Below are positions 7,333 to 17,818 of a DNA stretch of 49,576 nucleotides, piece by piece; positions within the stretch are counted from its first letter, which is position 1, and the number at the start of each line of letters is the position of its first letter. This DNA comes from Elusimicrobiales bacterium (lineage in GTDB: Bacteria; Elusimicrobiota; Elusimicrobia; Elusimicrobiales; UBA9959), in contig JAVHLJ010000018.1 of NCBI GenBank assembly GCA_031082205.1, positions 1 through 49,576 of the forward strand. Direction: 5' to 3'. The notes beneath the pieces were generated by a model, which was given only the letters and a program-made list of their open reading frames with translations, was not told where the DNA came from and searched no databases. Position numbers and translations under genes: made by a program.

Positions 7333-7335
7333 TCA
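7308..7335 (-). terminator. Possible terminator of the copper/cysteine operon
   Basis: On the minus strand TGAGGC (starting in the YHS stop codon) pairs with GCCTCA, with further GG/CC pairing inside, and is followed by TATTTT. The stem is short and the T-run imperfect, so efficiency is uncertain, but the position fits the end of the operon. Confidence 0.45.
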
Positions 7336-7818
7336 GCGCTTTTTCCCGTCCGCCGCTTTCTTGTGCGCCTTCTCCTGCTTCTTCTCCGCCTTTCTCTCCA
7401 CCAGGTCCATGCCGCACTTCGGGCAGCGGCCGGGCTTGTCGGATTCTGCGCAACCCATGGGACAGACGTATTTCTTCGCCGCGGCTTTCTCTTTGACCGC
7501 GTACTTCTCCGGGTCCTTCATGAAGGACTTGTCGCAGCCGGGGCAGCAGAAATAGTAGTTCTTCCCCTTGTAGGACATCGAGATGGTGTCCTTCGCTATC
7601 TTGAGACCTTCTCCGGTCACCGGGCAGACCGCGCTCTTGCCTATCTCCTCTTTCGTTACTTTCCTGTATGCTGCCTCCGCTTTTTTTGCGGCGTCGGGCT
7701 TCTTCTCCGCCGCGGCCGGGTGCTTGTGCCCGGAATGGTCCTTGTGCCCTCCCTGGGCGAATACCGGCGGCACCGCCAGCAGCGGCGTCAGCGCCATCGC
7801 TATCATTGCTTTCCTCAT
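7333..7818 (-). CDS. Periplasmic YHS-domain plus heavy-metal-binding protein
   Basis: A 161-residue exported protein. After a signal peptide (1-21, ending VFAQ) comes a His-rich stretch (GGHKDHSGHKH). A YHS domain follows (about 58-105: CPVTGEGL, YKGKNYYFCCPGC, DPEKY), then a heavy-metal-binding motif (about 115-140: YVCPMGCAESDKPGRCPKCGMDL), and a Lys-rich tail. YHS domains often accompany copper transporters and are thought to bind Cu. The second motif resembles the two HMBD copies in the CusB protein of the same operon. It begins 17 bases after the cystathionine lyase stop, with AAGGAGG as ribosome-binding site, and is the last gene of the unit. A periplasmic copper chaperone is the likeliest role. 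Confidence 0.8.
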   Translation of the reverse strand: MRKAMIAMALTPLLAVPPVFAQGGHKDHSGHKHPAAAEKKPDAAKKAEAAYRKVTKEEIGKSAVCPVTGEGLKIAKDTISMSYKGKNYYFCCPGCDKSFMKDPEKYAVKEKAAAKKYVCPMGCAESDKPGRCPKCGMDLVERKAEKKQEKAHKKAADGKKR

Positions 7819-7835: not shown

Positions 7836-8999
7836 CTATCCGCGCTGGATCTGATTTAAAGCGCGGTGCAGGTCCTTCAGCAGGTCCTCCGTGCTTTCTA
7901 TGCCGGCCGACAGCCGCACCAGACCGGCGGTGATGCCGCGTGCCAGCCGGTCCTTTTCCGGTATCGCGGCGTGCGTCATCGCGGCCGGGTAACAGGCCAG
8001 CGATTCCACGCCGCCCAGGCTCTCGGCCAGCGTGAAGATCTTCAGCTTTTTAAGGAATTTCTCCGCCGCCGGTCTCCCCCCTTTCAGTTCGAAGCTGACC
8101 ATGCCGCCATAGCCGTCCATCTGCGCTCCGGCCAGCGCGTGGGCCGGGTGATCTTTCAGGCCGGGATAATAGACCTTCGATACCGCCGGGTGGCGCGATA
8201 GCGCCTCCGCTATTTCGAAGGCGTTGGCCTCGTGCGCCTTCATGCGCACGGCGAGGGTCTTGATGCCGCGCAGCGTCAGCCAGGCGTCCCAGGGGCCGGG
8301 CACCGCGCCGGCCGCGTTCTGGTGGAACTTCACCTCCTCGAAGACGGCCTTGTCCTTTATCGCCAGCAGGCCGCCGATAACGTCGCTGTGGCCGCCCAGG
8401 TACTTGGTGGAACTGTGCACCACGATATCCGCGCCCAGTCCGACGGGCCGCTGGAAATACGGCGTCGCGAAGGTATTGTCCACGGCGAGCAGCGCCCGGC
8501 CCTTATGGGCTATCTCCGCCACGGCGGCGATGTCGGTGATATTGAGCAGCGGGTTCGTGGGCGTCTCGGCCCAGACCAGCCGGGTATTGCGGCGCATCGC
8601 TCTCCTGAAAGCAGCCGGGCTCCCGGAATCCGCGTAGGTTATCTCCAGCCCCCACTTGCGGAACACCTTCTCGAAGAGCCGGTAGGTGCCGCCGTAGAGG
8701 TCGTCGCCCGCCACCACGTGGTCCCCCTTTTTCAGCAGGCCGCCGACGACCGCGGTCTCGGCGGCGAGGCCGGAGGCGAAGGCCAGGCCGTGCCTCACTC
8801 CTTCGAGCGCGGCTACGCAGTCCTCCAGGGCTTTCCTCGTAGGGTTGCCGGTGCGGGAGTATTCCCAGCCGCGGTCCCGGCCCACGCCGTCCTGCTTGTA
8901 GGTGGAGGTCTGGTAGACGGGCACGGTCACCGAGCCGGTCCGCCGGTCCGCCTCCTGCCCGGCGTGTATCAGCGCCGTCTCGAATCCCATCCTCTTCAT
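7836..8999 (-). CDS. Cystathionine gamma-lyase / gamma-synthase family PLP enzyme
   Basis: A 387-residue member of the Cys/Met-metabolism PLP family, fold type I. The PLP lysine is K199 in VHSSTKYLGGHSD; TGNPT (about 50-54) and WAETPTNPLL are also conserved. Sequence alone does not separate gamma-lyase, gamma-synthase and beta-lyase. The overlapping partner (ATGA) is cystathionine beta-synthase, which favours gamma-lyase, releasing cysteine from cystathionine. The start at 8999 is chosen because of that overlap and the AAGGAG upstream; a second ATG nine bases on is possible. Longer reading to 9224 only re-reads the neighbour. Confidence 0.85.
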   Translation of the reverse strand: MKRMGFETALIHAGQEADRRTGSVTVPVYQTSTYKQDGVGRDRGWEYSRTGNPTRKALEDCVAALEGVRHGLAFASGLAAETAVVGGLLKKGDHVVAGDDLYGGTYRLFEKVFRKWGLEITYADSGSPAAFRRAMRRNTRLVWAETPTNPLLNITDIAAVAEIAHKGRALLAVDNTFATPYFQRPVGLGADIVVHSSTKYLGGHSDVIGGLLAIKDKAVFEEVKFHQNAAGAVPGPWDAWLTLRGIKTLAVRMKAHEANAFEIAEALSRHPAVSKVYYPGLKDHPAHALAGAQMDGYGGMVSFELKGGRPAAEKFLKKLKIFTLAESLGGVESLACYPAAMTHAAIPEKDRLARGITAGLVRLSAGIESTEDLLKDLHRALNQIQRG

Positions 9000-9946
9000 A
9001 GGAAGCCGTTCTCCTTCATCCAGCCGTCGTCGAAAAACTTGCTGAGATAGTTGCGTCCGGTGTCCGGCAGCATCACCACTATGGTCTCCGGGCGGCGGTA
9101 TTTCTCCGCGTATTTGAGCGCGGCCGCGAGCGCCGTGCCGGAGGAGCCGCCGACGAGCAGTCCCTCCTCGCGGGCCAGCCGGCGGGCCGCGGCGAAGGAC
9201 TCGGCGTCGCCGACGCGGAACCATTCGTCCACCACGCCCCTGTCGTAGATCTCCGGGAAGAAGTCCTCGCCTATGCCCTCCACCTTGTAGGACCTGGGCG
9301 TGTCGCCGGAAAGTATCGAGCCCTCGGGGTCCGCGCCTATCACCTTCAGGCCCGGCTTCTTCTCCTTGAGGAATTTTCCCGTGCCGGTGATGGTGCCGCA
9401 GGTGCCGGCTCCGGCCACGAAGACGTCCACTTCCCCCCCGCTGTCGGCCCAGATCTCGGGGCCGGTGGAGAGGTAATGGGCTTTCGGGTTCTCGGCGTTG
9501 GTGAACTGCCCGGGCCGCCAGGCGCCGGGTATCCCGCGCGCGAGCCGGTCGGCCACGCCGTTGTAGCTCTCCGGCGAGTCCGGCGCGACGTCGGTCCTGG
9601 TGATGACCACCTCCGCCCCGTAGGCTTTGAGCAGGCTCACTTTGTCGGCGCTCATCTTGTCGGGCAATACGAAAATCATCTTATAGCCTTTTACCGCGGC
9701 GGCGAGAGCGAGTCCCGCGCCGGTATTGCCCGCCGTGGCCTCCACTATCGTCGTGCGGCCCGGCGCTATCCGCCCGGCCTTCTCGGCCTCGGTAAGCATG
9801 CGCAGGGCTATCCTGTCCTTCACGCTGCCGCCGGGGTTGAGGTATTCCACCTTGGCGTAGAGCTTCGCGGGCAGGCCCGCCCCCGCGCGGTTAAGCCGCA
9901 CCAGCGGCGTGCCGCCTATGGCTTCAAGAATGCTGTCGTATCTCAT
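8996..9946 (-). CDS. Cystathionine beta-synthase (catalytic domain only)
   Basis: A 316-residue fold-type II PLP enzyme. K43 in GGSVKDR is the PLP lysine, TAGNTG binds phosphate, and GAGTCGTITG is the second glycine loop. It is called cystathionine beta-synthase rather than cysteine synthase because it has the block GADPEGSIL followed by YKVEGIGEDFFPEIYDRGVVDEW, which is characteristic of CBS. The regulatory CBS-domain pair is absent, so it should not be AdoMet-regulated. With the overlapping lyase it would convert homocysteine plus serine to cysteine, i.e. reverse transsulfuration. Its first 23 bases overlap the end of cusA, implying shared transcription with the metal pump. O-acetylserine sulfhydrylase activity is a possible alternative. 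Confidence 0.82.
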   Translation of the reverse strand: MRYDSILEAIGGTPLVRLNRAGAGLPAKLYAKVEYLNPGGSVKDRIALRMLTEAEKAGRIAPGRTTIVEATAGNTGAGLALAAAVKGYKMIFVLPDKMSADKVSLLKAYGAEVVITRTDVAPDSPESYNGVADRLARGIPGAWRPGQFTNAENPKAHYLSTGPEIWADSGGEVDVFVAGAGTCGTITGTGKFLKEKKPGLKVIGADPEGSILSGDTPRSYKVEGIGEDFFPEIYDRGVVDEWFRVGDAESFAAARRLAREEGLLVGGSSGTALAAALKYAEKYRRPETIVVMLPDTGRNYLSKFFDDGWMKENGFL

Positions 9947-12900
9947 GGGAGGCCTCTATTTCCCTTATCTCCCTCTTTTTCCAAAGGTAGAACACCACCG
10001 GGTATACCAGCAGCTCCAGCGCGAAGCTGGTGAAAAGCCCGCCTATCATCGGCGCCGCTACGCGCTTCATCATGTCGGCGCCGGTGCCGAGCGACCACAT
10101 TATGGGGATGAGCCCCATGAAGGCGGTCATCACCGTCATCATCTTGGGCCGCACGCGCTTGACCGCGCCGTGCACGACCGCCTCCTGCAGGTTCTTCAGC
10201 GTGAACGGCCGCCCGCTCTTGCGCAGTTCCTCGTAAGCGAGGTCCAGGTAAAGGAGCATGAACATGCCGGTCTCGGCGTCGAGGCCCATAAGGGCTATCA
10301 TGCCCACCCACACCGCTATCGAGATATTGTAGTCGAGCAGCCAGACGAACCACACCGCCCCGATGAGAGAGAACGGCACGGCCAGCAGGACTATGCCGGT
10401 CTTCACCGCCGACTTAGTGTTCATGTAGATCAGCAGGCAGATGAGGAAGAGCGTCAGCGGCAGCACGAACGTCAGGCGCTCCCGGACGCGCAGCATGTTC
10501 TCGTACTGGCCGCTCCATTGCAGGGAATAGCCCGGCGGGAGCTTGACGTGGTCGGCCACCATTTTCTTGGCGTTCTTCACGTAGGTCCCCACGTCCACGC
10601 CGGCGACGTCCACGTAGACGTAGCCGGAGAGCAGCCCGTTCTCGTTGCGTATCATCGCCGGGCCCGAGCGGAAGACGATGTCGGCTATCTGGCCCAGCGG
10701 CACGTTGACGCCGTTCTCCGCCGTCACCAGCACTCGCCCCAGCTTGTCCACGTCGTCGCGGAAGCCGCGGGCGTAGCGCACGTTCACCGGGTAGCGCTCG
10801 CGCCCCTCGACGGTGGTGGTCAGGTTCTGCCCGCCTATGGCCGTCATCAGCGCCATCTGCGCCTCTTTCACGGTCAGGCCGTAGCGGGCGAGCTGGTCGC
10901 GCCTGAGCTCGAAGTCGAGGAAGTAGCCGCCGGCGGTGCGCTCGGCGTAGACGCTGCGGGTGCCTTCGACCTGGCGCACTATCCGTTCCACTTCCAGACC
11001 GGTCTCCTCTATGGTCCTGAGGTCGGAGCCGAAGATCTTGATGCCGACCGGGGTGCGCACGCCGGTGCTCAGCATGTCTATGCGGGCCTTTATCGGCATG
11101 GTCCAGGCGTTGGATACTCCGGGAAAACGCATCTTCGAGTCTATCTCCGCGATCAGCTCGTCCCAGGTCAGGCGGTCGTACCAGACCCGCCGCAGCACCG
11201 CTTTCAGGAAGTCCGGCGCCCAGGACGAGTACCAGCGGTCCCTGGGCCTCCACTGGTCCATCGGCTTGAGCACCGCGACCGTCTCCATCATCGAGAAAGG
11301 CGCCGGGTCGGTGGAGGTGTCCGCGCGGCCCGCCTTGCCGTGGACGCGCTCCACTTCCGGGAAGGATCTGAGTATCCTGTCCTGCGCCTGCATCAGCCGC
11401 TGGGCCTCGGTCACGGAGATGCCCGGCAGCGTGGTGGGCATGTAGAGAATGGTGCCTTCGTTGAGCGGGGGCATGAACTCGGAGCCGGTCTTGAGATAGA
11501 CGGGGATGGCGGTAAGCACCAGGAACAGGGCTCCCGCCAGCACCTTGCGCGGATGCTCCAGCGTCCACCGGCAGACCGGTTCGTAGACCCTGAAAATCCG
11601 GCGCGATATCGGATGCTTCTCCTCCGGGTAGTACTTGCCGACGGTGACGGCGTTCACCAGGCCGGAGAACCAGGCCGGCCTGAAATGGACGTGGTCCATG
11701 CGCGTGAACATCATGCGCAGCGCCGGGTCCAGCGTGATGGCCAGCAGCGCCGCCACGAACATGGTGAGGTTCTTGGTGTAGGCCAGCGGCTTGAAGAGGC
11801 GGCCTTCCTGGTCCACCAGGGTGAAGATCGGCAGGAAAGCCACGGCTATCACGAGCAGCGAGTAGAAGACCGACGGCCCCACCTCCTGCAGGGCTTCCAG
11901 CCGCACGGCGTGGAAGTCGCCCTTCCTGCCCCCGGCCTCCCAGTGTTCCAGTTTCTTGTAGGCGTTCTCCACCTCCACTATGGCGCCGTCCACCAGGACG
12001 CCTATCGAGATGGCGATGCCGGCCAGCGACATGATATTGGAGCTGATGCCGGCCAGGTACATCGGTATGAAGGCCAGCAGCACCGCCACCGGTATGGTCA
12101 CGATGGGGATTATCGCCGAGGGGATGTGCCAGAGGAAGAAAAGTATGACCAGGCTGACTATGATCATCTCCACCGTGAGCTGGCGTTTGAGCGTGGCGAT
12201 GGCGCGCTTGATGAGGTCGGAGCGGTCGTAGGTGGTCAGTATCTCCATCCCTTCCGGGAGCGAGGGCTTTATTTCGTTAAGCCGCTCCTTGACGCGCTCT
12301 ATCACGGTGAGCGCGTTCTCTCCGTGGCGCATAACCACTATGCCGCCGACCGCGTCCCCCTCGCCGTCGAGATCGCCTATGCCGCGGCGCATTTCGGGCG
12401 CGGCCGTGACCGTCGCCACGCTCTTCACCAGGACCGGGGTGCCGCCGGGGCCGCGGGCGGCCACGACTATGCTCTCTATGTCCTTTATCGACCGCGCGTA
12501 GCCCCTGCCGCGGATCATGTACTCGGCGCCGGAGTACTCTATCAGGCGGGCGCCGCTTTCCTCGTTGCCTTCCTGGACGGCCTTCATGACCGCCGCGATC
12601 GAGATCCCGTGGGCGGCCAGCGCGTCCGGGTCGAGGTTTACCTGGTACTGCTTCTGAAAGCCGCCGAAGGCCGCCACCTCGGCCACGCCGGGCACCGACT
12701 GCAGCTGGTAGCGCAGGTTCCAGTCCTGGAAGGAACGCAGCTCGGCGAGGTCATGCCGGCCGCTTTTGTCGACGAGCGCGTACTGGTAGATCCAGCCCAC
12801 GCCGGTGGCGTCGGGTCCCAGTTCCGTCTTCACGCCGTCGGGCAGCTGCGGCAATATCTTGCTGAGGTATTCCAGCACGCGCGAGCGCGCCCAGTAGATG

Positions 12901-13202
12901 TCCGTGCCGTCCTCGAAGATGACGTAGACGTAAGAGAAGCCGAAATCGGAGAAGCCGCGTATGGTCTTCACCTTTGGCAGGCCCAGCAGCGCGCTGACCA
13001 CGGGATAGGTCAACTGGTCCTCTATCACGTCCGGAGAGCGGTCCCACCTGGAATAGACGATGACCTGCGTGTCGGAGAGGTCCGGTATGGCGTCGAGATT
13101 GATGTTCTTTACGGAGTAGACGCCCGCCGCGACCGCGGCCAGCGCTATGATCAGCACCAGGACCCGGTTATGCGCGGAGAAAGCTATGATGTCGCGTACC
13201 AT
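9924..13202 (-). CDS. cusA: CusA-type RND Cu(I)/Ag(I) efflux pump
   Basis: A 1092-residue inner-membrane RND transporter of the heavy-metal efflux family, with the usual twelve membrane helices and two large periplasmic loops. LVDGAIVEVENAYK (membrane helix 4 region) is conserved. The methionines that carry Cu(I)/Ag(I) in E. coli CusA (M573, M623, M672) have counterparts here: M588 in YMPTTLPG, M638/M639 in FSMMET and M710 in DMLSTG. This points to monovalent copper or silver rather than zinc or cobalt. There is an insertion of about 23 residues between the second and third sites, around WYSSWAPDFL. The gene starts 13 bases after cusB; the family length is normal. Confidence 0.93.
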   Translation of the reverse strand: MVRDIIAFSAHNRVLVLIIALAAVAAGVYSVKNINLDAIPDLSDTQVIVYSRWDRSPDVIEDQLTYPVVSALLGLPKVKTIRGFSDFGFSYVYVIFEDGTDIYWARSRVLEYLSKILPQLPDGVKTELGPDATGVGWIYQYALVDKSGRHDLAELRSFQDWNLRYQLQSVPGVAEVAAFGGFQKQYQVNLDPDALAAHGISIAAVMKAVQEGNEESGARLIEYSGAEYMIRGRGYARSIKDIESIVVAARGPGGTPVLVKSVATVTAAPEMRRGIGDLDGEGDAVGGIVVMRHGENALTVIERVKERLNEIKPSLPEGMEILTTYDRSDLIKRAIATLKRQLTVEMIIVSLVILFFLWHIPSAIIPIVTIPVAVLLAFIPMYLAGISSNIMSLAGIAISIGVLVDGAIVEVENAYKKLEHWEAGGRKGDFHAVRLEALQEVGPSVFYSLLVIAVAFLPIFTLVDQEGRLFKPLAYTKNLTMFVAALLAITLDPALRMMFTRMDHVHFRPAWFSGLVNAVTVGKYYPEEKHPISRRIFRVYEPVCRWTLEHPRKVLAGALFLVLTAIPVYLKTGSEFMPPLNEGTILYMPTTLPGISVTEAQRLMQAQDRILRSFPEVERVHGKAGRADTSTDPAPFSMMETVAVLKPMDQWRPRDRWYSSWAPDFLKAVLRRVWYDRLTWDELIAEIDSKMRFPGVSNAWTMPIKARIDMLSTGVRTPVGIKIFGSDLRTIEETGLEVERIVRQVEGTRSVYAERTAGGYFLDFELRRDQLARYGLTVKEAQMALMTAIGGQNLTTTVEGRERYPVNVRYARGFRDDVDKLGRVLVTAENGVNVPLGQIADIVFRSGPAMIRNENGLLSGYVYVDVAGVDVGTYVKNAKKMVADHVKLPPGYSLQWSGQYENMLRVRERLTFVLPLTLFLICLLIYMNTKSAVKTGIVLLAVPFSLIGAVWFVWLLDYNISIAVWVGMIALMGLDAETGMFMLLYLDLAYEELRKSGRPFTLKNLQEAVVHGAVKRVRPKMMTVMTAFMGLIPIMWSLGTGADMMKRVAAPMIGGLFTSFALELLVYPVVFYLWKKREIREIEASHEIRQHS

Positions 13203-13215
13203 AAAGGCCTTTTTC

Positions 13216-14466
13216 TCAGTCTCCCAGGGCCGCGCGCATCCTGGACTCCGAGTCGATCAGGAAGTTGGCGGAGGTCACCACCTTCTCCCCCGCGGAGATC
13301 CCCGAGCGCACCTCCACGTGGTCGCCGCCCCTCCTGCCGGTGCGGACCTCCCGCGGCTCGAAGACGCCACCGTCCTTCATGACGAAGACCAGCTCCTTTT
13401 CGCCCGTGTCGAGCACGGCGCCGGCGGGCACCGTCAGCGCCGTTCCGAGTTCGGCTTCGATGCGGACCTCCACGTACATCTCGGGGCGCAGCGCCAGGTC
13501 CGGGTTCCCGGTCTCTATCCTGGCCCGCAGCGTGCGGGTCTCTCCGGAGACGATGGGGTCCAGCGAGCGCACGACGCCGCGGAAATCCCTGCCCGGCCAG
13601 GCGCGGGACCGTATGACGGCCTTCTGTCCCGGTTTCACGGCGGCGGAATCGTATTCGTAGACCTGCGCGTAGACCCACGCCGTCTCCCGCGGCAGCAGCA
13701 GGTTCTCGAAGCGCTCCGGATCCCTTTCGGCCTCCTTCAACTGGTCCTCGCCCAGGCCAAGCTGCAGCAGGCGCAGCCTGGCGGCGCCGGCCAGCGCGGC
13801 GGCGCGTTCCCTGGCGTCCGGCCAGTCGCTCTCTTTCATGCGGTCGCGCGCGGCCGCGGCCTCCCGGTATTCCGCGACGGCCCTGTAGAGGTCCGGGTCG
13901 TAGGCTACCTTGCCGGGAGCGTTTATCGTTCTTGCCAGGCGGCGCCAGGCGGCCGCGCCGGTCTTGAGCCCTATCATCCGCTGCTTTTCGGGCGTGAGGG
14001 TCACGACTCCGTGGCCGGGGACGCCGGACCCGCCGCCGTCCCCGTAGACCGGGATATAGTCCATCCCCATCTCGTCCTTCATCGGGACGGGCGAGGTGAT
14101 CTCCGGGTTCATCGGGTTGCGGTAGAACTTAACTTCCCGTTCCCCGCCGGCCGCCGGCTCTTTCTTCACCAGGTGCATATTGCAGATGGGGCAGTCGCCG
14201 GGCCTGTCCGAGGTGACGTCCGGGTGCATAGGGCAGTAGTAGAGGTCCTTCCGCGGAGCGGGGGCCTCTTTCTTGACCAGGTGCATATTGCAGATGGGGC
14301 AGTCGCCGGGCCTGTCCGAAGTGACGTCCGGGTGCATCGGGCAGTAATACAGCTCGGCCTGGGCGTGGGCGTGACCGCCGGCGTAATGCCTCCAGGCGGC
14401 GTAGCCGCCTCCGAGCAGCAGCACGGCGCCCAGCGCGGCGGCGGCGAGTCCTGATCTTGAGATCAT
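13216..14466 (-). CDS. cusB: CusB-type periplasmic adaptor with duplicated metal-binding domain
   Basis: A 416-residue membrane-fusion protein linking the pump to the outer-membrane channel. It has an N-terminal membrane anchor (about 5-25). Two almost identical heavy-metal-binding motifs follow (YYCPMHPDVTSDRPGDCPIC then NMHLVKKE, near 40-65 and 76-101). A third, degenerate copy (FYRNPMNPEITSPVPMKDEMGMDY) lies before the adaptor body (about 150-416) with barrel-sandwich and beta-barrel segments. The helical hairpin is short, as in CusB. The start at 14466 overlaps the TolC-type stop (ATGA); the longer frame to 14811 re-reads the neighbour. Extra Cys/Met/His sites suggest that it captures copper and hands it to the pump. 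Confidence 0.9.
   Translation of the reverse strand: MISRSGLAAAALGAVLLLGGGYAAWRHYAGGHAHAQAELYYCPMHPDVTSDRPGDCPICNMHLVKKEAPAPRKDLYYCPMHPDVTSDRPGDCPICNMHLVKKEPAAGGEREVKFYRNPMNPEITSPVPMKDEMGMDYIPVYGDGGGSGVPGHGVVTLTPEKQRMIGLKTGAAAWRRLARTINAPGKVAYDPDLYRAVAEYREAAAARDRMKESDWPDARERAAALAGAARLRLLQLGLGEDQLKEAERDPERFENLLLPRETAWVYAQVYEYDSAAVKPGQKAVIRSRAWPGRDFRGVVRSLDPIVSGETRTLRARIETGNPDLALRPEMYVEVRIEAELGTALTVPAGAVLDTGEKELVFVMKDGGVFEPREVRTGRRGGDHVEVRSGISAGEKVVTSANFLIDSESRMRAALGD
14161..14352 (-). repeat. Near-identical 84-bp tandem duplication inside cusB
   Basis: Bases 14161-14244 and 14269-14352 match at about 79 of 84 positions, with a 108-base period (36 codons). Each copy encodes one CPMHP...CPICNMHLV metal-binding motif. 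High identity at the DNA level suggests a recent duplication or gene conversion. Confidence 0.85.
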
Positions 14467-15686
14467 AAACTTTCTCCAGTTATGGCCATTTTGCGGGCCC
14501 GCCAGTAGGCGTATTCGGCCCGGGACCTGTAATACTCCCGCTGAACTTCCAGAAGCGCGCGGCCGGCCTCTATGAGCTCGAGGAAGGAAGCCTGCCCGGC
14601 CTCGTAGGAGGCCCGCGACGCCTTCAGCGCCTGTTCGGCCTGCAGGACGGCCGAGGCGTAGATATTTATAAGGTTGGCGCAGCAGTCCAGTTCCAGCGCG
14701 GCGGACTTCAGCTCCAGCAGCAGCGCGTTGCGGGCGGAGTCGTATTCCGCCTCCGCGGCGGCGCGCTCCGCCGCGGCCTCGTCCCGTTCCGCCTTGTTCC
14801 GGCCGAACCACAAGGGGACGGTGAGGCCCAGCGAGAGGTCGTAAGTGCCGTCCATCGCGGGATCGTCGGCGGAGCGGCGCCGCAGCCCCACCATGAGGTC
14901 CGGCGCGTAGCCGGCCCTGGCCAGGGCCGCCCTCCTGTCGTAAGCCCCGATCCTGGCCCTCAGTGCCCTTAACCCCGGATTATCGGCCAGCGCCGCCGCC
15001 TCCAGGGCCGGGTAATCTGCGGGTTCCGGCGCGAAATCCTTCTCCTCCGGTTCGCCGACGGGGGCGGCCGGCGGGCGGTTGCGCAGGGCGTTCAGCCGCG
15101 CCGCCGCCGCCCCTTTCTCCTGGGCCGTTTCCAGCAGCAGCCCCTGCGCCTTCGAAAGTTCGACCTGGGCTCTGAGCGCGTCGGCCTGTGAACCCCGGCC
15201 GGCCGCGTAGCGGCTTTCGGCGGCCAGCGCGAAACCGCGCACCAGCTCCAGGTTCTCCCTGTACAGGCGCTCCGTGCGGGTCAGGAGCAGGTAGTTCTGG
15301 AAAGCTTCCACCGCCTCCGCCAGCACCTTGTTGGTCCGGTCGCCGGAAAGGGCGCGGTAGTAGGCGCTCTCCCCTTTCGCGGCGTCGCGCGCCAGGCGGG
15401 ACTTGAACGGGTTACGGAACTCCTGCTTCAGGGACACGGCCCTCTCCGCGGCCCCGGACCCGAGCGGTCCGTCGGCGTACATGCGCTCGAATTCCACCAC
15501 GGGGTCCATCGGCAGCCAGGCCTGCCGCACCCGCGCCGACGCCGCCCCGGCGGCGGCCGCGGCCTCCGCTATCTCCGGATTCGCGGCCCGGACCTCCCCG
15601 AGGAAGATTTCCAGCGAGAGCGGCGCCCTCTCCTCCGCGTGGGCGGGGAGGGCCGCGAAAATGATGAAGATCGCCGCGTACTTCAT
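14463..15686 (-). CDS. TolC-family outer-membrane efflux channel
   Basis: A 407-residue outer-membrane efflux protein: signal peptide (1-17, ending AHA), then two repeats of long Ala/Glu/Arg-rich helices with coiled-coil character joined by short strands, as in TolC/CusC. The segments PVVEFERMYADGPLGS and LGLTVPLWFGRNKAERDEA are typical of heavy-metal-type channels. Unlike CusC there is no lipobox cysteine. It overlaps cusB by four bases and lies nine bases after a small membrane protein gene. It would complete the CusCBA-like tripartite complex across both membranes. Confidence 0.88.
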   Translation of the reverse strand: MKYAAIFIIFAALPAHAEERAPLSLEIFLGEVRAANPEIAEAAAAAGAASARVRQAWLPMDPVVEFERMYADGPLGSGAAERAVSLKQEFRNPFKSRLARDAAKGESAYYRALSGDRTNKVLAEAVEAFQNYLLLTRTERLYRENLELVRGFALAAESRYAAGRGSQADALRAQVELSKAQGLLLETAQEKGAAAARLNALRNRPPAAPVGEPEEKDFAPEPADYPALEAAALADNPGLRALRARIGAYDRRAALARAGYAPDLMVGLRRRSADDPAMDGTYDLSLGLTVPLWFGRNKAERDEAAAERAAAEAEYDSARNALLLELKSAALELDCCANLINIYASAVLQAEQALKASRASYEAGQASFLELIEAGRALLEVQREYYRSRAEYAYWRARKMAITGESL

Positions 15687-15695
15687 ATCGAACCC

Positions 15696-15950
15696 CTAAT
15701 GAGCCAGCCTGGCCGCCAGGCCGCTGAGCCCCGGCAGATGGTATATTACGACCCCGGCCAGGACCGCGAGATACAACAGTCCGGCCGCTATGGCGGCCTT
15801 GGCCATTTTCCGGCCGCGGTCGCTTATCCCGGGGTCGCGCAGGGCCATGAGGCCGAAAGCGACCGCCAGGCCCGCCTTCTCGGTCCCGAAAAGGTGCACG
15901 AACGACAGTAAACCCATGGCCAGGGCGGCCATGGCGAGTTTAGCGGACAT
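15696..15950 (-). CDS. Small two-helix membrane protein, DUF4190-like
   Basis: An 84-residue protein with two membrane helices (about 4-22 and 50-72) separated by GLMALRDPGISDRGRKMA, a pattern like DUF4190 proteins in which a second helix begins with a GRxxAxAG-type motif. ATG codons at 15953 and 15950 both lie inside the end of the anti-sigma gene; AAGGAGG fits the second better. It is translationally coupled to the anti-sigma gene and sits directly before the efflux genes. The role is unknown; assisting the anti-sigma factor or pump assembly is conceivable. Confidence 0.6.
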   Translation of the reverse strand: MSAKLAMAALAMGLLSFVHLFGTEKAGLAVAFGLMALRDPGISDRGRKMAKAAIAAGLLYLAVLAGVVIYHLPGLSGLAARLAH

Positions 15951-16515
15951 CATGTCCCTCCTTGATCTCGTCACCGGACCCGGCGTCCTTTTCCATCCCG
16001 CAGGACTTGCAGGGGCAGAGATGACCCTTGCCCGCCTCGTGCATGCAGCCGCACAGGTAAGCCGAGCATTCGCCGCAAAGCCTGGCCACGGCCACCGGGT
16101 TTATCATGCTGGCCGGCCGGAGCATCCCCGCGACGGCCTTTTTGGCCAGTTCGCCGCGCTGCGAACTTTCCAGCGCGCTGGCGTTGAAGGCGAAAGTCAG
16201 GACGTTCAGCAGTATGAAGGCGGAGAGGGCGACGGCGGCCGGCGCGGGCAGGCGGAGGAACCGGGCCAGGGAGAAGCGTTCCTCCCTCACGGCCGCGGCG
16301 GCGGCTGCCACTTTAGCGGCGAAGAAAGGGGGCGGTTCGGGCGCGGGCAGGGAGCGCAGCCCGGCTTCGGCGGCGCGCATCCCGGCCAGGGCCGCGGCGC
16401 AGGAGGCGCAGCCGGCGAGATGGGCCTCGATCTCGTCCGCCTCTTTACGCGGAAGCTCTCCGTCCATGTAAGCGGATAGTTTTCTTCCGTATTTGCGGCA
16501 GCTTTCGGTAAGCAT
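15940..16515 (-). CDS. Zinc-finger anti-sigma factor with Cys-rich periplasmic tail
   Basis: A 191-residue membrane anti-sigma factor. The N-terminal zinc-binding anti-sigma domain has H32-X3-C36-X2-C39. A single membrane helix lies at about 91-110. The C-terminal part (111-191), predicted to be periplasmic, holds seven cysteines (147, 150, 155, 157, 167, 169, 172) with two nearby histidines, in CGEC, CGC and CPCKSCGM motifs. This tail looks like a metal or thiol sensor, and the efflux genes downstream suggest copper or silver. It follows the ECF sigma gene by 52 bases with a GGAGGA site. Sensing by the tail is inference; the anti-sigma domain and its sigma partner are well supported. Confidence 0.85.
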   Translation of the reverse strand: MLTESCRKYGRKLSAYMDGELPRKEADEIEAHLAGCASCAAALAGMRAAEAGLRSLPAPEPPPFFAAKVAAAAAAVREERFSLARFLRLPAPAAVALSAFILLNVLTFAFNASALESSQRGELAKKAVAGMLRPASMINPVAVARLCGECSAYLCGCMHEAGKGHLCPCKSCGMEKDAGSGDEIKEGHDVR

Positions 16516-16567
16516 GAATATGGCTCCTCCGGACCTTTTAACGCAGGAAGCGGCGAAAACTTGCGGT

Positions 16568-17143
16568 CTATTTTCCGAGTTTTTCGGCCAGGGTGCGGCG
16601 GGCGCGGAAGAGCAGGGATTCCACCGAGGGTACGGTCGTGTCCATGATTTCCGCTATCTCGGCGTAGGAGCGGTCCTCGTATACCCGCAGGAGCAGGGCC
16701 GTCCGCTGGGGGCCCGGCAGGGCGGCCAGCGCGGCCGCGGTCCGCTCTTCCGACTGGGACTTCTCCAGCTCTTCTTCCGGGGAGGCCCCGCCCGCCGGCT
16801 CCAGGCCGCGCTCCGCCGCGGCGTCCAGGCTGACGGCGGCTATGGAGGCGCGCGCGGCGGCGCGCCTGCCGCTGTCCACGGCGAGGTTGTAGGCGAAGCG
16901 GAAAAGCACGGTGGAGAGCGAGGCCCTGGGCTCCAGGGCCGGCGCCGCCCGGTAAAGGCGCAGGAAGGCTTCCTGCGCCAGGTCCTCGGCGGCCCCGCGG
17001 TCGCGGGTGTACCTGTAGAGGAAGTTTATCAGCCTGCCGGAATGCTTTTCCACGATGCGGGCGAAGGCGGACTCGTCCCCCTCGTTGAAGGCGGCGAGCA
17101 GGTCGAAATCTTCCGGCAGCGCCGGCTTCCGTTCTTCGCTCAT
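16568..17143 (-). CDS. ECF-family RNA polymerase sigma factor
   Basis: A 191-residue sigma-70-family ECF factor. Region 2 (about 27-70: FARIVEKHSGRLINFLYRY, AEDLAQEAFLRLYRA) binds core polymerase and the -10. Region 4 (about 138-189: LPGPQRTALLLRVYEDRSYA, then VPSVESLLFRARRTL) binds the -35. There is no C-terminal Cys-rich extension of the CorE type, so any signal must come from the anti-sigma partner downstream. The sigma gene starts 10 bases after the DUF2177 gene. It probably activates this operon, but its target promoter cannot be defined from the sequence alone. Confidence 0.92.
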   Translation of the reverse strand: MSEERKPALPEDFDLLAAFNEGDESAFARIVEKHSGRLINFLYRYTRDRGAAEDLAQEAFLRLYRAAPALEPRASLSTVLFRFAYNLAVDSGRRAAARASIAAVSLDAAAERGLEPAGGASPEEELEKSQSEERTAAALAALPGPQRTALLLRVYEDRSYAEIAEIMDTTVPSVESLLFRARRTLAEKLGK

Positions 17144-17153
17144 CGCGGATATT

Positions 17154-17549
17154 CTACTTAATGGTTCCGCCGGCGGACGCGGCGAAGCCGGCCAGGGCGG
17201 CGGCGGCGGTCAGCAGCGTGCCCCAGGCGACATCGGCCAGGACCACCTGCCAGGTCCAGCCCTTGAGCAGGGCGAGGTTGGTGAAATTGTAGACGCCGTA
17301 GACGGTGAAGCCCAGCGCCGCGCCCCGCGCGGCCGCCGCCCCGGCCGAGGCCGCGGGGGAGACGGCGAAGAACCACACCGCCGCAGGATAGATCAGGTAG
17401 AAGCCTATGGCGCCGGGCCAGTATACCCGCTCCGCCATCAGGTTCCCCAGCCGGGACTTGTAGAAGGCGTTGGCGGCCCAGCCCACCCAGAAAAGGTCCA
17501 GCGCCGCCACGCAGGCGCCCGAAGCGAACATCGAAGCCAGGATCTTCAT
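17154..17549 (-). CDS. DUF2177-family membrane protein
   Basis: A 131-residue protein with four predicted membrane helices (roughly 5-22, 42-62, 70-90, 102-124). GVYNFTNLALLKGWTWQVVLADVAWG is the hallmark block of DUF2177, a family of unknown function often found near sigma factors or photolyase-type genes. The start overlaps the TSCPD stop (ATGA) and the stop is 10 bases before the sigma gene, so it belongs to the same unit. Any link to metal resistance is by position only. Confidence 0.85.
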   Translation of the reverse strand: MKILASMFASGACVAALDLFWVGWAANAFYKSRLGNLMAERVYWPGAIGFYLIYPAAVWFFAVSPAASAGAAAARGAALGFTVYGVYNFTNLALLKGWTWQVVLADVAWGTLLTAAAALAGFAASAGGTIK

Positions 17550-17818
17550 TTGCCCCCCTTATTTACCTCCGCCGCCAGTTTCTCCAGCACGCGGGCGAGC
17601 TGGTCGGAACAGGAGGTCTTCTTCCCGCCGCACTTTATGCCCTTGAGCTTGCGTACGGCTTCCTTCACCGGCATGCCTTCCAGCAGCAGGGCCATGGCCC
17701 GGAGATTGCCGGGGCAGCCCTTGTAGAATTTCACGCCTTTCAGTTTTCCCCCGGCCACGCGGAAAGAGACCGACTTGGCGCAGACGCCTTCGAGTTCGTG
17801 GTTCATGTCTTTGGTCAA
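17546..17818 (-). CDS. TSCPD-domain protein
   Basis: A 90-residue protein of the TSCPD family, named after its C-terminal motif, here KKTSCSDQLA. Further conserved cysteines are in GVCAKSVSF, KGCPGN and IKCGG. The domain also occurs at the end of B12-dependent ribonucleotide reductases, and stand-alone forms are uncharacterised. The start is probably TTG at 17818, because GGGAGG lies just upstream and a TATAAT sits 18 bases before it; ATG at 17806 is the alternative. It is the first gene of the eleven-gene unit ending at 7333. Confidence 0.8.
   Translation of the reverse strand: MTKDMNHELEGVCAKSVSFRVAGGKLKGVKFYKGCPGNLRAMALLLEGMPVKEAVRKLKGIKCGGKKTSCSDQLARVLEKLAAEVNKGGK

Follow-up and report, generated by a model that had tools for sequence, protein, structure and literature searches.

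A copper-gated membrane anti-sigma factor is probably what controls an ECF sigma factor and the efflux pump CusCBA in the Elusimicrobiales genome analysed here, from which a stretch of 49,576 nucleotides (the window) was examined. In the resting state of the proposed switch, the cytoplasmic ZAS domain would hold the ECF sigma factor encoded upstream. A soft metal in the periplasm, most likely Cu(I), would be bound by several of the seven Cys residues of a C-terminal tail, which would then change shape and free the sigma factor, either through the single membrane helix or through a triggered proteolytic step. The freed sigma factor would start transcription at CGCAAGTTTT-N12-CGTTWA just ahead of the anti-sigma gene, and the output would be more anti-sigma factor, more of a two-TM protein and more CusCBA pump, by which copper would be exported and the switch reset. 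Such a loop would be self-limiting, since the induced unit does not include the sigma gene and the inhibitor would climb alongside the pump without a rise in sigma. The features of the locus were listed in Table 1.

Table 1. Predicted features of the sigma/anti-sigma locus and the adjoining copper efflux genes (positions in the window)
Feature	Position	Strand	Evidence
CusA-like Cu(I)/Ag(I) RND pump	9924..13202	-	TIGR00914 (CusA/CzcA model) 1050.8 bits, over cut-off
CusB-like adaptor with two HMBD repeats	13216..14466	-	HMBD PF19335 1.1e-27; HlyD_D23 8e-26; CusB PRK09783 1.2e-37
CusC-like outer membrane efflux protein	14463..15686	-	OEP PF02321 1.5e-38
Two-TM protein, 84 aa, weak DUF4190 likeness	15696..15950	-	Start overlaps anti-sigma stop; DUF4190 26.1 bits, below cut-off
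Membrane anti-sigma factor, 191 aa	15940..16515	-	zf-HC2; profile match to RsiW anti-sigma-W 5wuq, E 3.3e-7
Cys-rich, predicted periplasmic tail, residues 140-176, C-x2-C-x4-C-x-C-x9-C-x-C-x2-C	15988..16098	-	Cys columns 86-95% conserved; predicted helix 140-160, then loop
Single transmembrane helix, residues 92-113	16177..16242	-	Hydropathy; predicted helix 92-113
Cytoplasmic ZAS/anti-sigma domain, residues 1-55, H32xxxC36xxC39	16351..16515	-	zf-HC2; predicted helices, pLDDT >90 over most
Predicted ECF-type promoter CGCAAGTTTT-N12-CGTTAA	16538..16565	-	Sigma/anti-sigma gap, reads into anti-sigma gene
ECF sigma factor, 191 aa, sigma2 and sigma4 regions	16568..17143	-	Sigma70_r2 1e-13; Sigma70_r4_2 9.9e-17

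Domain structure of the anti-sigma factor

The open reading frame at 15940-16515 on the reverse strand was found to be real, and its residues are numbered exactly as in the initial annotation, in which the product had been described as an anti-sigma factor with a seven-Cys periplasmic tail and proposed as a candidate metal sensor. Residues 6-40 matched zf-HC2 (E 1.6e-12) with the class I zinc signature H32xxxC36xxC39, of which all three residues were invariant among 22 orthologs, and the profile of the anti-sigma family matched RsiW in the PDB (5wuq, E 3.3e-7). Having this N-terminal Hx3Cx2C domain and an ECF sigma gene directly upstream, the protein read from 16515 to 15940 belongs, as judged from its sequence, to the class I ZAS anti-sigma factors and is equipped with a new, putative sensor module. 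The class I proteins RsiW, ChrR and RsrA carry the same HxxxCxxC domain, but they lack a Cys-rich periplasmic tail and answer other signals.

One hydrophobic helix was detected C-terminal to the ZAS domain, with the hydropathy peak at residues 92-110 (KD 2.05), and it is preceded by the basic segment VREERFSLARFLR, which fits an N-in orientation. To hold the sigma factor, the ZAS domain has to lie in the cytoplasm, and the positively charged N-terminal side of the single helix agrees with this orientation; the tail should therefore be periplasmic.

Conservation and specificity of the Cys-rich tail

The seven Cys residues named in the initial annotation (C147, C150, C155, C157, C167, C169 and C172) were all located C-terminal to the membrane helix. 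Among all open frames of at least 100 aa in the 49.6-kb window, residues 147-172 formed the 26-residue stretch richest in Cys, with 7 Cys, and every other stretch contained 5 or fewer. A profile search of 341 genomes of the phylum gave a set of 22 orthologous proteins from four Elusimicrobiota families, 22-74% identical to the anti-sigma factor of the window, including 19 members in its own family and 3 distant ones (families f17, f18 and f20). Close relatives of the window's genome were recorded as Elusimicrobiales or Elusimicrobia MAGs. The seven tail columns held Cys in 86-95% of the 22 orthologs, and the mean conservation was 64% at the other post-membrane positions and 59% over residues 1-89. 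In the four most distant members the tails were still rich in Cys, with the spacing or part of the Cys pattern changed. By these sequence comparisons, the Cys tail is not a product of chance and is strongly constrained.

The two His residues annotated in the tail were present as well, but H159 was only partly kept (15/22 orthologs) and H165 was confined to the genus. H165 was dismissed as a metal ligand, not being conserved. The C-terminal HVH was likewise dismissed as an additional ligand; it is common among the tails, yet it is no sign of metal binding because it is dictated by the following gene, whose start overlaps it (ATGTCCACTAA).

The Cys tail was absent from the two other ZAS anti-sigma factors in the window's own genome and from most of the others recovered in the phylum, and it thus tracks the Cus operon and is specific to it. 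Beyond the phylum, the survey was small and covered plasmids, viral contigs, 14 genomes from a single other phylum and genome contigs that were scanned with a degenerate pattern for close relatives. ZAS anti-sigma factors were found among the 14 genomes, none of them with a Cys tail, and relatives of the Cys-tailed protein were found neither in the plasmids nor in the viral contigs.

The tail was predicted by AlphaFold, with a better result from 22 sequences than from 12, to consist of a helix over residues 140-160 that carries four of the Cys and a loop that carries the other three, with moderate to low confidence (pLDDT about 54-72 for the tail and about 60-72 for this helix and loop). Its end, CPxxCxM, resembles half an HMBD, a likeness that was not significant, and the tail as a divergent HMBD is unproven (no Pfam hit, hhalign probability 27%, 28/200 Cys-fixed column shuffles equally good). 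The same resemblance, together with the HMBD metal sites in CusB and in neighbouring proteins, is what could be cited for the tail as a metal buffer or chaperone that passes copper to CusB or CusC, with the sigma factor placed under another signal such as regulated proteolysis. As many as 28 of the 200 shuffles reached the score, however, and the tail is fused to a regulator and not to the pump, and this role is considered very improbable.

A predicted, conserved ECF-like promoter upstream of the anti-sigma gene

Alignment of the regions upstream of the anti-sigma genes revealed a common motif, CGCAAGTTTT-N12-CGTTWA, which shows the -35/-10 layout of ECF promoters and was found with fixed spacing and at most 2 mismatches in 22/22 loci, distant families included. 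This motif, which falls outside the interval of the initial annotation, is the strongest of the newly gained evidence. It begins about 45-55 bases ahead of the anti-sigma start codon in most loci and farther away in L042, L046 and L076. Short GC-rich repeats were observed between the motif and the anti-sigma start in L042 (2546-3439, reverse strand), and they might, read in frame, extend the protein at its N-terminus. In the 2.7-Mb genome to which the window belongs, 16538-16565 was the sole site at 2 or fewer mismatches, and the control gave 0. Across the 341 genomes of the phylum, 22 exact sites were counted compared to 2 for the reversed control.

The positions of these sites point to the genes that the promoter may serve. 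Sixteen of the 22 exact sites precede the anti-sigma gene, three lie 3' of the sigma gene and before an HMBD protein, a DUF302-like protein or a second CusCBA unit, and one stands before a CopA-type ATPase; in L039, a copy with 2 mismatches likewise stands ahead of a CopA-type ATPase. The regulon predicted from the motif is therefore, on sequence grounds, one of copper export. The copies ahead of CopA-type copper ATPases in L039 (5822-8466, forward strand) and L099 (1-1528, reverse strand) suggest that the copper regulon of some relatives is wider. Two further sites, one inside a gene (L104) and one before an unrelated peptidase-like gene (L106), are both probably due to chance.

No motif was found before any sigma gene at 3 or fewer mismatches. 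With the sigma gene outside the induced unit, induction would raise the inhibitor and the pump and not the sigma factor. The promoter would be served by the neighbouring ECF sigma factor.

Sigma factor, operon structure and pump type

In most relatives the sigma orthologs adjoin or sit near the anti-sigma gene, usually upstream. The sigma factor of the window contains no Cys and ends shortly past region 4, and it has no Cys-rich extension of the kind that marks CorE-like (ECF238) sigma factors. Genes for a TSCPD-domain protein and a DUF2177 protein (17154-17818, reverse strand) end 11 bases ahead of the sigma gene, and transcription of the sigma gene may be driven from them in the window's species; in relatives other than this species, different genes were found upstream of the sigma gene.

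The initial annotation had put the anti-sigma gene directly upstream of Cu efflux genes. Efflux genes do lie downstream, but the two-TM gene intervenes, and the order is anti-sigma, two-TM, cusC, cusB and cusA. These genes overlap or nearly so, and their order recurs across the four families. The two-TM gene directly followed the anti-sigma gene in all loci examined, with an overlap in most of them, and its product carries a conserved SF-H/Q-xFGxEKA stretch. Such constancy would be expected if the two-TM protein were itself the sensor, as CnrX is for CnrY, with the tail mainly docking it or buffering metal, and it would also suit a needed partner. A sensing role is rather improbable for a protein that is almost devoid of Cys and His and lacks a sizeable periplasmic domain, and the conserved residues of metal-binding type are found in the tail.

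In CusA, M588, M638 and M710 align with M573, M623 and M672 of E. coli CusA, the known Cu(I)/Ag(I) ligands, and by this alignment the pump is of the three-Met Cu(I)/Ag(I) RND type (HME4). In loci L037 and L042, a different, more distant RND pump directly follows the two-TM gene, and the metal specificity may vary because of this difference. These two loci, the location of seven Cys in an oxidizable compartment, and the use of periplasmic Cys for Cr and Cd by SigmaF-NrsF of Caulobacter (PMC3511200) would also agree with a tail that senses thiol oxidation or another soft metal (Ag, Cd, Hg or Zn), in which case the anti-sigma factor would be inactivated by a disulfide or by the bound metal. We regard this as unlikely, since the pump retains its Cu(I)/Ag(I) three-Met site, motif copies precede CopA-type ATPases and HMBD proteins, and seven Cys, being odd in number, are ill suited to disulfide pairing.

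Several other genes near the locus were recorded. A cysteine synthase-like and a cystathionine gamma-synthase-like gene (8996-9946 and 7836-8999, reverse strand) come after cusA, their ends overlapping, and are possible members of the cus operon; similar genes adjoin the locus in L040, L044 and L085 and lie on its opposite side in L076-L078. A periplasmic protein with a YHS-like and an HMBD-like Cys motif is encoded at 7333-7818 (reverse strand) near the copper operon, and its relatives are found near the locus in further genomes too.

Discussion

ECF sigma factors are known from several metal-responsive systems, and the locus described here resembles each of them in part. In SigmaF-NrsF of Caulobacter crescentus, two periplasmic Cys of a six-TM anti-sigma factor matter, and their replacement by Ser releases the sigma factor (PMC3511200). 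An ECF sigma factor and a membrane anti-sigma factor with periplasmic Cys are shared with our system, in which the metal role of the Cys is presumed. However, NrsF (DUF1109) lacks a ZAS domain, has six TM helices and two Cys, responds to Cr and Cd, and has DUF2282, DUF692 and DoxX targets and not CusCBA (PMC3511200), whereas the anti-sigma factor of the window has one TM helix and gave no NrsF Pfam hit.

In CnrYXH of Cupriavidus metallidurans, a periplasmic metal signal reaches an ECF sigma factor through an anti-sigma complex (PMC4803752). The combination of an ECF sigma factor, a membrane anti-sigma factor and an RND cation pump is common to both systems, the metal trigger being a presumed one in ours (PMC4803752). 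Differently, CnrYXH employs the separate sensor CnrX and the class II anti-sigma factor CnrY, which has no ZAS domain, and senses Ni and Co (PMC4803752). The anti-sigma factor of the window is a ZAS protein, and the additional gene encodes a two-TM protein that resembles DUF4190 only weakly.

CorE (ECF238) of Myxococcus xanthus is linked to copper and bears a six-Cys C-terminal extension on the sigma factor itself (PMC3107203). The first three tail Cys share the CorE spacing 0,3,8 (C147, C150 and C155 compared to C181, C184 and C189), a likeness in spacing (PMC3107203). The CorE extension has six Cys and is placed on a cytoplasmic sigma factor that has no linked anti-sigma factor (PMC3107203). 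In SigAb-AabA of Acinetobacter, copper raises the activity of an ECF sigma factor, whose anti-sigma factor is AabA, by a sensing step that is unknown (PMC12153292). An ECF sigma factor linked to copper, with one or more anti-sigma genes alongside (PMC12153292), is also what we propose here, the copper link being presumed in our case; differently, the SigAb gene is autoregulated and a Cus-type pump belongs to the indirect regulon (PMC12153292).

The initial annotation had suggested that the tail would provide a different route for periplasmic copper sensing. Periplasmic copper sensing agrees with a constrained Cys tail on a membrane anti-sigma factor, on what should be the periplasmic side, and with a CusCBA pump of Cu(I) type under a conserved promoter. 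As a principle, a different route is overstated, because CnrYX-CnrH and SigmaF-NrsF already relay periplasmic metal signals and SigAb/AabA answers copper. The transfer of a periplasmic metal signal to an ECF sigma factor is hence already known, and it is the architecture of a single-pass ZAS protein with a Cys tail that is apparently new; no description of this design was found in the open-licence literature, which is weak evidence of novelty. We lean slightly towards the proposal that the short periplasmic Cys tail of this single-pass ZAS family is itself the copper sensor and signals directly to an ECF sigma factor, with neither a two-component system nor a separate sensor in between; as the induced unit would not include the sigma gene, the inhibitor would rise together with the pump.

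The best-known means of sensing copper in the periplasm are the two-component systems CusRS and CopRS, and in the known copper-linked ECF sigma factors the metal is sensed in the cytoplasm on the sigma factor (CorE) or by an unknown step (SigAb). About 30 residues would take the place of a sensor kinase if sensing is done by the tail. The conserved promoter offers a ready reporter and a predicted regulon, by which the switch is testable in a surrogate host. Few Elusimicrobiota have been cultured, and in this little-studied phylum the switch would be a variant of the known metal-sensing switches.
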